Assembly: GCF_007625205.1 (NCBI RefSeq)
Contig: NZ_VMNI01000005.1
Location: 62,001-126,000, forward strand
Reading direction: 5' to 3'
Source of the DNA: Denitromonas ohlonensis
GTDB lineage: Bacteria > Pseudomonadota > Gammaproteobacteria > Burkholderiales > Rhodocyclaceae
DNA: 64,000 nucleotides
Positions within the stretch are counted from its first letter, which is position 1. Each line of letters starts with the position of its first letter. The position numbers were made by a program, and so were the translations under genes. Below the pieces are notes generated by a model. The model saw only the letters and a list, made by a program, of their open reading frames with translations. It did no database searches and was not told the origin of the DNA. Below, in pieces: positions 15,519 to 36,601 of the stretch.

Positions 15519-15578
15519 GGAGTCCCCTTGATTCAAGCGTAGTGCACGGCGGCCGGGCCTGACCGCCGATAAAAACGC

Positions 15579-15760
15579 TCTCCGGCCGGTCTTCTGACTC
15601 GGGTTCAGCGTCTGCCGCGCCTTCCCGCCCGTTTGGGCAGTGGCATGTTGCGGCAGACATCCCCCTCACAGCGTTGGGCACGTTGCGGAATCGGCAGCCG
15701 GGGCAGGCCCCGCCGCCTCACCGCATTCCCGATTCTCCCGTCTTGAGACGGGCACCGGAA
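15579..15760 (-). ncRNA. Cobalamin (adenosylcobalamin) riboswitch of bluB
   Basis: The minus-strand leader reads like a class I cobalamin aptamer in the correct order. GGTGCC is at the 5' end (15753-15758), followed by a GAGAATCGGGAA segment, CGGTG, a CGGCTGCC junction, CCGCAAC and the B12 box GCCACTG (within 15635-15644). GGGAAGGCG and a closing GAGTCAGAAGACCGGCC complete it. The aptamer ends about 60 bp before the bluB start, and a T run (15575-15571, read on the minus strand) follows it. Binding of cobalamin should turn off bluB, by termination at that run or by hiding the ribosome site; which one is not clear. Confidence 0.93.
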
Positions 15761-15766
15761 AGCGAC

Positions 15767-15803
15767 ATGAAAACGGCCGCCAGTCTAGCAGAGCGGCGGC
15801 CGT
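15767..15803 (-). terminator. Terminator of the pyruvate kinase gene
   Basis: A 9-bp perfect stem (ACGGCCGCC/GGCGGCCGT) with a 13-base loop is followed on the minus strand by TTTTC. It lies between the pyk stop and the bluB riboswitch, so it keeps the two units apart. Confidence 0.7.
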
Positions 15804-21003: not shown

Positions 21004-21213
21004 ATGGATAGCTTGTATTTGCTGATTCCACTTTCCGTCTTCCTGGTCTTTGTGATCGGCCTGCTGTTCTGGTGGTCGGTGCGCTCGGGGCAGTTCGACG
21101 ACCTCGAGGGGCCCGCGTATAGAATGATGATGGACGACGATAAACCGCCGTCGGCGAAGGATGCCGACGGTCCGGCCGGAAATACCCCAAAAAACGGGCG
21201 GGACGTCGGCTGA
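21004..21213 (+). CDS. ccoS: cbb3 oxidase assembly protein CcoS
   Basis: A 69-residue single-span protein. Residues 5-25 are the membrane helix (LLIPLSVFLVFVIGLLFWWSV), followed by the hallmark SGQFDDLEGPAYRMMMDDD. CcoS is needed to insert cofactors into the cbb3 oxidase. The ATG at 21004 is 3 bp after the ccoI stop; a GTG at 20998 overlapping ccoI is an alternative. The long acidic-to-basic tail after residue 45 is variable in the family. Confidence 0.93.
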   Translation: MDSLYLLIPLSVFLVFVIGLLFWWSVRSGQFDDLEGPAYRMMMDDDKPPSAKDADGPAGNTPKNGRDVG

Positions 21214-21245: not shown

Positions 21246-21286
21246 TTGATCCATGTCAACGCCCCTATTTTGCGCATAGTCATACT
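21246..21286 (+). promoter_or_regulatory. ANR/FNR box and -10 of the small-RNA promoter
   Basis: TTGATCCATGTCAA (21246-21259) matches the FNR consensus in both half-sites with a 4-base spacer. CATACT (21281-21286) begins 28.5 bp from the box centre, giving a start near 21293 with the box at about -41. No protein gene follows; a terminator lies 78-105 bp downstream. Confidence 0.72.
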
Positions 21287-21292
21287 ACGCAC

Positions 21293-21398
21293 ATGGGTAT
21301 TGGCATGTGCCGCGCCGACGCGGCGCTGGCGTGCCAGCCAAACGGTTTCAAGTCTCTCTGTTGGGGTTGGGGGTGCGTGCAAACGCACCCTTTTTTTT
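21293..21398 (+). ncRNA. Candidate oxygen-regulated small RNA between ccoS and ccoN
   Basis: Predicted transcript of about 106 nt from the ANR promoter to a strong terminator. The 5' part folds as GGCATG ... CGTGCC enclosing GCCGCG-CCGA-CGCGGC. A pyrimidine-rich single-stranded stretch follows (GTCTCTCTG, 21352-21360), then a G-rich linker and the terminal hairpin. No convincing reading frame fits within it: the only frame runs straight through the terminator. Size, regulator and layout resemble FnrS of enterobacteria and the FNR-induced RNAs of Neisseria, though no sequence identity is claimed. GUCUCUC is complementary to GAGAGAC in the ccoO ribosome site. Expression is inferred from sequence only. 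Confidence 0.6.
21371..21398 (+). terminator. Terminator of the candidate small RNA
   Basis: Stem GGGTGCGT/ACGCACCC with a GCAA (GNRA) tetraloop and eight Ts (21391-21398). It separates ccoI-ccoS and the small RNA from the ccoN promoter. Confidence 0.92.
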
Positions 21399-21465: not shown

Positions 21466-21506
21466 TTGACCTGTATCAAAAGCTCGACCCGGTCTAGGGG
21501 TATCCT
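21466..21506 (+). promoter_or_regulatory. ANR/FNR-dependent promoter of ccoNOQP
   Basis: The ANR box TTGACCTGTATCAA (21466-21479) is centred 28.5 bp before TATCCT (21501-21506), the class II activator arrangement. The predicted start is near 21513, about 68 bp ahead of ccoN. This fits induction of cbb3 oxidase when oxygen is low. Confidence 0.82.
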
Positions 21507-21580: not shown

Positions 21581-23005
21581 ATGCAATCGCAAGCGACTTA
21601 CAACTATAAAGTCGTGCGCCAGTTCGCCATCATGACGGTGGTGTGGGGGATCGTGGGCATGCTGGTCGGCGTGATCGTCGCAGCACAGCTCGTATGGCCC
21701 GAACTGAACTTCGCCGAGTGGTTCCACTTTGGTCGACTGCGCCCGTTACACACAAACGCCGTGATCTTTGCCTTTGGCGGCTGTGCGCTGTTTGCAACGT
21801 CTTACTATGTGGTGCAACGCACGAACCATGTGCCCTTGTTTGCACCCAAGTTGGCATCATTTACGTTCTGGGGATGGCAACTCGTCATCTTGCTCGCCGC
21901 GATCACCTTGCCGCTGGGGATTACCACCAGCAAGGAATACGCCGAGCTCGAGTGGCCGATCGATCTGTTGATTGCGGTCGTGTGGGTGTCTTACGCGATC
22001 GTCTTCTTCGGGACCATCGCCAAGCGCAAGACGTCGCACATTTATGTGGCCAACTGGTTCTACGGTGCATTCATCCTTGCGGTGGCTTTGCTGCATATCG
22101 TCAATAGCGCGGCGATTCCGGTCAGCCTGACCAAGTCCTACTCCGCCTATGCGGGTGTGCAGGATGCGATGATCCAGTGGTGGTACGGCCACAATGCGGT
22201 AGGCTTCTTCCTGACCGCTGGCTTCTTGGGCATGATGTATTACTTTGTGCCAAAGCAGGCCGACCGTCCGGTCTATTCCTATCGCCTGTCGGTGGTGCAC
22301 TTTTGGGCGCTGATCTTCACTTACATGTGGGCCGGCCCTCACCACCTGCACTACACGGCGTTGCCGGACTGGACTCAGTCTGTGGGCATGGTTTTCTCGC
22401 TGATTCTGCTGGCACCGTCGTGGGGCGGCATGATCAACGGCATCATGACCTTGTCGGGCGCGTGGCATAAGCTCCGTACTGATCCGATTCTCAAATTCCT
22501 GATCACCTCGCTGTCCTTCTACGGCATGTCGACCTTCGAAGGTCCGATGATGTCGGTGAAAACCGTGAATGCGCTGTCGCATTACACCGACTGGACCGTC
22601 GGTCATGTGCACTCGGGCGCACTTGGCTGGGTGGCCATGGTGTCGATTGGTGCGATGTACTACCTGCTGCCGCGTATGTACGGCAAGACTGAAATGTATT
22701 CGACCAAGCTGATCACGACCCACTTCTGGATCGCGACCATCGGTGTCGTTTTGTACATTGCCTCGATGTGGATTGCCGGTGTTATGCAGGGCCTGATGTG
22801 GCGTGCCACCAACCCGGATGGCACATTGACCTACTCCTTCGTTGAGTCGGTCAAGGCCAGCTATCCGTTCTGGTCGATCCGTCTGCTCGGTGGTGTGCTC
22901 TTCCTCGGCGGCATGCTTCTCATGTTCTACAACATGGTGAAGACGATCGCTGGTCAGAAAGCCTACAGCGCACCGGTGGTCGCGCCGCAGGCCGCACACG
23001 CCTAA
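21581..23005 (+). CDS. ccoN: cbb3-type cytochrome c oxidase subunit I
   Basis: A 474-residue catalytic subunit with about 12 membrane helices; it holds heme b and the heme b3-CuB centre that reduces oxygen to water. ATG 21581 has AAGAGGTG about 6 bp upstream. [13 protein letters not shown] supplies a heme-b His; [25 protein letters not shown] holds the CuB His and the Tyr used in cbb3 enzymes; [13 protein letters not shown] holds the His pair; and [17 protein letters not shown] the late heme ligands. It heads ccoNOQP behind its own ANR promoter. Confidence 0.98.
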
Positions 23006-28516: not shown

Positions 28517-28530
28517 TTGACGCCGATCAA
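28517..28530. promoter_or_regulatory. Shared ANR/FNR box between usp-hemerythrin and phaC
   Basis: TTGACGCCGATCAA is a two-half-site FNR box between divergent genes. To the right, CACAAT (28552-28557) starts 28.5 bp from the centre, the same geometry as at ccoN. To the left, a perfect TATAAT starts 31.5 bp from it. One dimer could therefore control both phaC and the usp operon. Confidence 0.75.
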
Positions 28531-35797: not shown

Positions 35798-36541
35798 TCA
35801 GACGCTGGGCAGGTGGCTCAGCAGGGCCTTGAGGCCGCCGATGTTTACGATGCGGATGTGTTTTTGCTGCACCTTGATCAGACCGTTTTCCTGGAAGCGT
35901 GAAAAGGCCCGGGAGACCGTTTCAAGCTTGAGGCCCAGGTAAGAGCCAATTTCCTCGCGCGTCATGCGCAGGTGAAATTCGGCGGCCGAGAAGCCGCGCG
36001 CAGTAAAGCGTTGCGACATGTTGATCAGGAAGGCGGCCAGGCGCTCTTCGGCGCGCATCGAGCCGAGCAGCATCATCACGCCATGGACGCGCACGATTTC
36101 GCGGCTCATCACCTTGTGGAACTGGTGCTGCAGCGATTCAACCTCGCGCGACAGGGTTTCCAGATTGGCAAAGGGGATGATGCACACATCGCTGTCTTCG
36201 AGTGCGACCGCGTTGCAGGTGTGCGCATCGGTGCTGATGCCGTCGAGCCCGATAATCTCACCCGACATCTGAAAACCGGTGACCTGCTCACGACCGTCTT
36301 CGAGCAGCACATCGGTCTTGAATGAGCCGGTGCGCACGGCAAAAATGGCTTCGAAGGTGTCGCCAACGCGATACAGATGTTGGTGGCGCTTGACCTTTCG
36401 ACGTGCGCCGACCAGCCCGTCGAGCTGGTCGATGTCGCCATCACTCATGCCAAAAGGTAAGCACAGCTCCTGCAGGTTGCATTGCGAACAGGCGGTCTTC
36501 AGCCCTTCAGCAGTAATTGGCACAACGGCCCGTTGAGGCAT
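35798..36541 (-). CDS. fnr: Oxygen-sensing regulator FNR/ANR
   Basis: A 247-residue regulator with four iron-sulfur ligands in place: C18, C21 and C27 (CSQCNLQELC) and C109 (HTCNAV). It therefore carries an oxygen-labile 4Fe-4S cluster, unlike the DNR-type protein nearby. The helix-turn-helix contains GSYLGLKLETVSRAFSRF with the FNR recognition residues E-x-x-S-R. ATG 36541 is preceded by AAGGAG at 11 bp and AGGTT nearer. It should activate the boxes seen at ccoN, the small RNA, phaC and the hemerythrin operon. A box upstream may autoregulate it. Confidence 0.96.
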   Translation of the reverse strand: MPQRAVVPITAEGLKTACSQCNLQELCLPFGMSDGDIDQLDGLVGARRKVKRHQHLYRVGDTFEAIFAVRTGSFKTDVLLEDGREQVTGFQMSGEIIGLDGISTDAHTCNAVALEDSDVCIIPFANLETLSREVESLQHQFHKVMSREIVRVHGVMMLLGSMRAEERLAAFLINMSQRFTARGFSAAEFHLRMTREEIGSYLGLKLETVSRAFSRFQENGLIKVQQKHIRIVNIGGLKALLSHLPSV

Positions 36542-36587
36542 AACCTGCGTTCTCCTTGATTCGTTTTTTTGCGCTGCTTTGGGGCGT

Positions 36588-36601
36588 TTGATCCACGTCA
36601 A
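36588..36601. promoter_or_regulatory. ANR/FNR box between fnr and hemN
   Basis: TTGATCCACGTCAA, 13 of 14 bases identical to the small-RNA box. It lies 46 bp before the fnr start and 54 bp before hemN. Neither direction shows a -10 with the standard spacing; TAATAC (36636-36641) would put the box near -53 for hemN. Repression of fnr or activation of hemN are both possible. Confidence 0.75.

Follow-up and report, generated by a model that had tools for sequence, protein, structure and literature searches.

Many Rhodocyclaceae carry, between two genes of the cbb3 oxidase, what reads as a conserved small RNA (sRNA) gene equipped with an FNR switch. Judging from sequence, we consider it likely that this gene encodes a stand-alone, FNR-activated and probably Hfq-dependent sRNA that represses translation as oxygen falls. 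The gene was encountered in a 64,000-nucleotide stretch of Denitromonas ohlonensis DNA (the window), where an earlier note had proposed an oxygen-responsive regulator RNA encoded inside the cbb3 locus. That interpretation appears largely to hold, given the conservation of the unit, the covariation in its terminator, the geometry of its promoter and the separate FNR box of ccoN. What we infer comprises expression, activation by FNR, use of Hfq and repression; the features themselves are collected in Table 1.

Table 1. Features of the predicted sRNA locus and of the presumed activator gene, with positions in the 64,000-nt window
Feature	Position	Strand	Basis
ccoS, upstream neighbour	21004..21213	+	TIGR00847, 69.9 bits (cut-off 28.35)
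FNR/ANR box TTGATCCATGTCAA, class II sRNA promoter	21246..21259	.	perfect match, sequence
CATACT, -10-like hexamer	21281..21286	+	best-hexamer spacing across homologues
Predicted FNR-activated sRNA, ~106 nt	21293..21398	+	start inferred from class II geometry
Variable 5' segment with predicted local hairpin	21293..21351	+	fold and alignment
Near-invariant core GUCUCUCUGUUGGGGUU, predicted pairing region	21352..21368	+	alignment A1 and covariance model R1
TCTCTGTTGGGGTT within the core	21355-21368	+	identical in all A1 sequences
Intrinsic terminator, GCAA loop and T8	21369..21398	+	sequence; stem covariation
Terminator stem	21371-21378/21383-21390		
T8 of the terminator	21391-21398		
Second, separate perfect FNR box, before ccoN	21466..21479	.	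sequence
ccoN, downstream neighbour	21581..23005	+	TIGR00780, 785.5 bits (cut-off 583.15)
fnr, presumed activator	35798..36541	-	N-terminal Cys cluster CSQCNLQELC

Conservation and promoter of the unit

A blastn search with a 251-nt query against 61 genomes returned matches in 26, the window's own included. The genome G005, congeneric with that of the window, matched the 251-nt query at 100%, and 19 of the 26 loci (L008-L026) matched just 44 to 62 nt, corresponding to the 3' end of the unit; a perfect TTGAN6TCAA box lay upstream in all 26. A search with the 18-mer TCTCTGTTGGGGTTGGGG found at least 119 stretches. Among the matches listed, blastn loci and 18-mer stretches together made up 145 core-bearing loci, and a hairpin followed by a T-run was present in 138 of these, or in 139 once L081, whose stem ends in CC and not CCC, had been admitted by hand. 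The hairpin pattern was lacking in six core loci, and the record titles of four of these point to other phyla or classes (Nocardioides, Ruegeria, a deltaproteobacterium and Nostoc). The 139 loci represent 131 distinct units, of which 129 have at least 130 nt of upstream sequence, again among the matches listed.

The earlier note had named Thauera and Azoarcus relatives as the place to look for conservation, and the unit proved to extend well beyond them, through much of the family. R1, a covariance model built on the unit's 3' module, gave matches at E <= 0.01 in 159 of 199 family genomes, spread over 57 of 68 genera; three of the 159 were weak (G084, G149 and G155, with E above 0.001). Run across 300 genomes of the order, the same model gave strong matches outside the family (f1) in G374 and G393 only, which are draft genomes, 89% and 86% complete. 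Nineteen weaker matches from the order (about 26 to 38 bits) were read; none contained an intact core and two had a perfect FNR box. At L165, a weak model match without an FNR box, two tandem matches below threshold, one mmgR-like and one ar14-like, lie close to a tRNA gene (L165:1378-1442 and 1504-1608, both on the minus strand).

In the window, an FNR box followed by a -10-like hexamer at class II distance had been claimed, and both are there. The box matches perfectly, and the first base of CATACT lies 28.5 nt from its centre, which places the predicted start of the sRNA at about 21293-21294. Across homologues the FNR promoter geometry is fixed. A perfect TTGAN6TCAA box was found within 250 nt upstream in 128 of the 129 distinct homologues listed (the exception is L080), compared to 11 of 3913 random 250-nt stretches taken from the same loci. 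Measured from the box centre, the best -10-like hexamer stood at 28 or 29 nt in 124 of those 128 homologues if ties went to 28, and other ways of breaking ties gave 117 or 120; the hexamer read CATACT 55 times and CATAAT 14 times. The distance from box to core ranged from 48 to 212 nt, with a median of 99. The unit thus has the promoter layout expected of FNR-activated base-pairing sRNAs, with a box at class II distance from the -10-like hexamer.

These promoter counts bear on a different origin of the RNA, namely that it is the 3' end of a ccoI-ccoS (ccoGHIS-type) mRNA, or a 3'UTR-derived RNA cut from one. RNAs derived from 3'UTRs are common, and of the 122 testable loci among the matches listed, 116 indeed have ccoS upstream at 700 nt or less. 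A 3'UTR fragment would need no FNR promoter, however, so the box and the fixed -10 spacing ahead of the core, recurring far above the frequency in random stretches, count against this origin. We regard it as unlikely, while noting that promoter and 3'UTR origins could operate together.

The neighbour on the other side raises the question of a cis-acting ccoN leader or attenuator, with transcription starting from the first FNR box and read-through governed by the hairpin. The unit does precede ccoN, at 900 nt or less, in 102 of 117 testable loci among the matches listed, and a terminator-like cbb3-locus motif of Rhodobacterales, HRC-8-4, has been proposed as a cis switch (excerpt of PMC8632094). 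Yet a second perfect FNR box stands between the terminator and the gene in 98 of the 102 loci with ccoN nearby, the window among them, which agrees with the claim that the gap holds two separate FNR promoters. The remaining 15 of the 117 loci, six of them labelled Zoogloea, retain the unit without ccoN within 900 nt, and this too speaks against a leader. Moreover, a conserved alternative pairing was not seen in the alignment of the 3' module, and a leader would leave the complementarity to other mRNAs, described below, unexplained. We therefore give the leader a low probability and favor a stand-alone sRNA with its own promoter.

The presumed activator gene, fnr, sits on the same contig as the sRNA gene and scores 230.3 bits with the Fnr subfamily model NF008365 against a cut-off of 228 (positions 35876-36595, minus strand, covering most of the gene). 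Autoregulation is possible, since the fnr start codon is preceded, at a distance of about 47 nt, by a perfect FNR box (36588-36601). The same genome encodes Hfq on another contig (102.9 bits). Elsewhere in the window, further perfect TTGAN6TCAA boxes occur at 28517, 30792 and 51475, and a cobalamin riboswitch lies at 15567-15774 (minus strand, 120.8 bits).

Anatomy of the predicted RNA

The unit had been described as a structured segment without a coding frame, closed by a terminator with a GNRA loop and eight Ts. Folding of the predicted RNA (21293-21397, 105 nt) was somewhat better than that of dinucleotide-shuffled sequences, with a z of -2.48 and 1 of 200 shuffles as good, and the terminator with its GCAA loop and T-run is present in the window. 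The proposed check for hairpin covariation came out in favor of the terminator: of 13 pairs predicted in all, compensatory changes were found in four of the nine that belong to it. The four core pairs proposed by RNAalifold do not vary at all and are therefore uninformative about core structure. The terminator loop and the 5' half vary freely among homologues; the GNRA loop is not general and differs between genera, and the 5' hairpin segment is variable even within Denitromonas (alignment A2, 8 sequences).

The core is the part that stays constant. TCTCTGTTGGGGTT is identical in 56 of 56 sequences of alignment A1; in rows that came from the 18-mer search the core was imposed by the search word, yet it holds equally in the blastn rows, where it was not imposed. 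In predicted folds of 125 sequences, the unpaired fraction was about 0.8 for UGUU, 0.17 to 0.46 for UCUC and 0.13 to 0.41 for the first GGGG, so that the core would be only partly unpaired in such models.

As for the absence of a coding frame, the claim fails if taken literally, since the ATG at 21293, the predicted 5' end, opens a frame of 58 codons in the window. What stands is that no frame is conserved among homologues. An ATG occurs near the predicted start in 32 of the 128 homologues listed, and 23 of these open into the core, spread over all three frames (8, 8 and 7). A translational fusion of gonococcal FnrS, which also starts with AUG, was silent (excerpt of PMC3032703). A small protein gene starting at the 5' end is thus scarcely credible, and we rejected a coding gene on the grounds that no frame is conserved. 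The unit is discrete and short, has an intrinsic terminator and contains no conserved frame.

Candidate mRNA targets

Repression in trans is suggested by the complementarity of the core to the translation start regions of a number of genes. Within 10 Denitromonas genomes, CCAACAGAGA occurs 17 times. Nine occurrences are the RNA gene itself, and four of the other eight begin 18 to 26 nt before the ATG of a real gene, two of them at thiolase genes, one at a thioesterase gene and one, in the window's own genome, at a YeiH-like gene. The shorter pattern CCCAACAGAG-N3-30-ATG is not enriched, being present in 46 of 91 family genomes (self-hits included) vs 48 of 120 genomes of the order; a permuted control word was found in 55 of 91 family genomes, so there is no raw 10-mer excess.

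A separation between family and order emerged from the extended sites. We compared the program-chosen loci L199-L228 from the family, of which 23 were left after removal of 7 antisense self-hits, with 30 loci from the order (L249-L278); another 20 places, selected by eye with a preference for gene-like spacing, were kept out of the statistics. Length alone does not separate the two sets, since an open reading frame (ORF) of at least 100 aa follows the CCCAACAGAG site in 12 of 23 non-self family loci vs 10 of 30 order loci, with seven of those 10 order ORFs also matching Pfam. An ORF of this length combined with at least two further complementary bases was found in 9 of 23 family loci vs 0 of 30 in the order (Fisher P = 1.8e-4). 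With the permuted control word, 4 of 30 loci had an ORF this long, and one of the four matched Pfam.

Extending the word to CCCCAACAGAG-N3-30-ATG gave 57 non-self sites in 199 genomes (59 before removal of L311 and L336, self-hits missed by the filter). An ORF of at least 100 aa followed 39 of the 57, a figure obtained with an 11-mer, whereas the controls of 10/30 and 4/30 used a 10-mer, and one in which several sites represent one gene in one genus. Pfam matches were obtained for 25 of the 30 ORFs scanned among the 39, L326 looking like an internal start, and the other nine, which lay outside the Pfam scan, resemble the same proteins by sequence. Complementarity spans 14 to 20 nt before DsrC-like genes and 16 to 17 nt before the Cu/Zn superoxide dismutase gene, sodC. 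The remaining genes encode DsrE-like proteins, FolE2, 2-oxoglutarate dehydrogenase E1 (sucA), isocitrate lyase, 4-hydroxyphenylpyruvate dioxygenase (HPPD), acetaldehyde dehydrogenase, a ring-oxygenase-type reductase (for which no NCBIfam equivalog cut-off was reached), an FAD monooxygenase, allantoicase and ErpA. Many candidate sites were seen in one or two genera, and those of sodC, sucA, HPPD, isocitrate lyase and others mostly in single genera. ErpA was rejected as a family-wide target, with a mean z of -0.71 over 31 loci, and is a candidate in two genera.

For the window's own genome, the best site belongs to a YeiH-like putative sulfate exporter gene, which has two CCCCAACAGAG sites in tandem (L186, G000:C11; z -3.77), and a cytochrome c gene has a shorter complementary site. 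Taken with the DsrC- and DsrE-like sites, the YeiH-like sites hint at a sulfur theme among the targets. A dsrC-like match was absent from this genome at E <= 1e-15.

The broadest candidate is a dsrC/tusE-like gene. DsrC/TusE-like proteins (TIGR03342) occur in 20 of 71 genomes, and 14 of the 20 have a close orthologue; the genome-search set plus two pattern-search loci gave 16 orthologue loci from 13 genera. Measured against composition-shuffled cores, pairing of the core with the orthologue start regions had a mean z of -5.07 (n = 16), compared to -1.26 for 16 paralogues (Mann-Whitney P = 4e-5). A z of -2.25 or below was reached by 15 of 16 orthologues, representing 12 of 13 genera, vs 3 of 16 paralogues. 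Ten of the 12 genera with a dsrC/tusE-like site have the sRNA according to the covariance model. By duplex energies, which ignore accessibility, 13 of the 14 orthologues from sRNA-bearing genomes fell between -25.4 and -42.1 kcal/mol and the other one at -15.3. The orthologues from two genomes in which the model did not detect the sRNA (G026 and G097) gave -21.0 and -23.4 kcal/mol, with z of -3.74 and -2.25, and are among the three weakest duplexes. The correspondence has exceptions on both sides: the site is absent from the L383 orthologue, whose genome bears the sRNA, and the L374 orthologue has a z of -3.74, yet the sRNA was not detected in its genome. Complementarity at an mRNA start is thus conserved for the dsrC/tusE-like gene and not for ErpA.

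Separately, a palindrome of the type ATACNNGACTAAAATAGTCNGGTAT lies in the promoters of L231, L370-L373, L375, L376 and L378, just before the RNA-complementary ribosome-binding site; it resembles an IscR type 1 site.

The core, strictly conserved as it is and rich in G-runs, could also be imagined to titrate another RNA or a protein, as a sponge or protein-binding RNA would. Long matches to the starts of real genes, and one gene's site recurring in 12 of the 13 genera tested, argue against such a role, to which we assign a very small probability, and for an sRNA that would pair with mRNAs.

Proposed mechanism and relation to known RNAs

In the mechanism that we propose for the stand-alone sRNA, a drop in oxygen would yield active FNR, and FNR would then turn on two promoters in parallel, the sRNA's own class II promoter and that of ccoN, giving separate transcripts. 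The RNA would consist of the variable 5' hairpin, the near-invariant UCUCUCUGUUGGGGUU segment and the terminator with its U8 tail, the kind of tail bound by Hfq, which would probably assist. The segment would base-pair with ribosome-binding sites of the form (AA)CCCCAACAGAGAG(A), thereby blocking translation of mRNAs whose products require oxygen or are costly in its absence.

Such an RNA would work like FnrS and AniS while matching neither in sequence. No Rfam family was matched at its gathering score here, and sub-threshold resemblances to SorY, AniS and others were rejected as membership. The best of these was to SorY of Rhodobacter (RF02651), over CUCCCUGUUGG and the terminator, with 29.0 bits for the window and 38.6 for the best relative (L019) against a gathering score of 111; SorY is named for singlet oxygen resistance and not for FNR.

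AniS, the gonococcal FnrS (RF02274), is induced by FNR from a class II site at -41.5 and is about 108 nt long. It shares with the window RNA the order of 5' stem-loop, unstructured middle and terminator, and its transcript starts with AUG, as predicted for the window RNA (all in the excerpt of PMC3032703). Unlike the window RNA, it is encoded beside bacterioferritin genes and not in a cbb3 locus, according to the same excerpt. The window RNA scores 16.9 bits with the AniS model against a gathering score of 50; the cores differ (UUUCCUCUUGAUGUGUGUGUUUGGG vs GUCUCUCUGUUGGGGUUGGGG), and the AniS core UUUCCUCUUGAUGUGUGUGUUUGG is absent from the window RNA in the alignment. We also came across AniS-like RNAs in another family of the order, at L175:1438-1543 (plus strand) and L177:1501-1584 (minus strand), scoring 27 to 29 bits against the same gathering score; L177 contains the AniS core, and each has its own perfect FNR box, 165 to 166 nt ahead of the 3' part that matched. 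The distribution of AniS may be wider than is known.

Enterobacterial FnrS is likewise activated by FNR and represses genes of aerobic respiration, oxidative stress and central metabolism (excerpt of PMC8139620). PMC7311995 gives a list of FnrS pairings examined with mutants, b2153 among them, and the FnrS sequence printed there does not contain the Rhodocyclaceae core, as far as the excerpt of that paper goes. FnrS was absent from the Rfam matches of the window and the candidate at E up to 10. The folE2 start is among the candidate sites of the Rhodocyclaceae RNA, and b2153 in the FnrS pairing list is folE. The FnrS gene presumably occupies another genomic place than the cbb3-locus RNA.

Two further RNAs invite comparison. 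HRC-8-4 is a conserved terminator-shaped motif in the cbb3 locus of Rhodobacterales, but it lies mainly between ccoP and ccoG and is conserved at its loop tip (excerpt of PMC8632094), whereas the Rhodocyclaceae RNA has its conserved part upstream of the stem, together with an FNR box of its own. The Bordetella pertussis RNA S17 is also betaproteobacterial, has a 27-nt stretch identical across orders, Aromatoleum aromaticum included, and pairs with start regions; unlike the window RNA it arises by processing of a longer RNA next to coq7, and its level is higher in the Bvg+ mode (excerpt of the preprint PMC11722255). The strings GUUGGGG, GTTGGGG and CUCUCU were absent from that paper's main text as excerpted.

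A published account of the cbb3-locus RNA was not found in the literature searched, which consisted of open-licence papers, and the same search found no oxygen-controlled sRNA described in Rhodocyclaceae. PMC11912907, PMC9765128 and PMC4423775, each in excerpt, provided background only.

We see the balance as even for a broader reading, in which an unnamed sRNA family beside high-affinity oxidase genes couples cbb3 induction to translational shut-off through one near-invariant segment. The functions shut off would be oxygen-dependent catabolism (HPPD, the ring-oxygenase-type reductase, FAD monooxygenase and acetaldehyde dehydrogenase), superoxide defence (sodC), the TCA and glyoxylate cycles (sucA and isocitrate lyase) and a sulfur relay (the dsrC/tusE-like gene), and the carriers would be most of the family, including Azoarcus, Thauera, Dechloromonas, Zoogloea, Accumulibacter and their kin. 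In wastewater and sediments, habitats in which oxygen swings constantly, Rhodocyclaceae are prominent in denitrification, in the degradation of aromatics and in phosphorus accumulation. A family-wide RNA whose promoter can be read, whose core segment hardly varies and for which a first list of targets exists would make aerobic shut-off in denitrifiers testable by simple means. Alongside FnrS and AniS, it would suggest that unrelated sequences have several times given rise to a repressing RNA under FNR.
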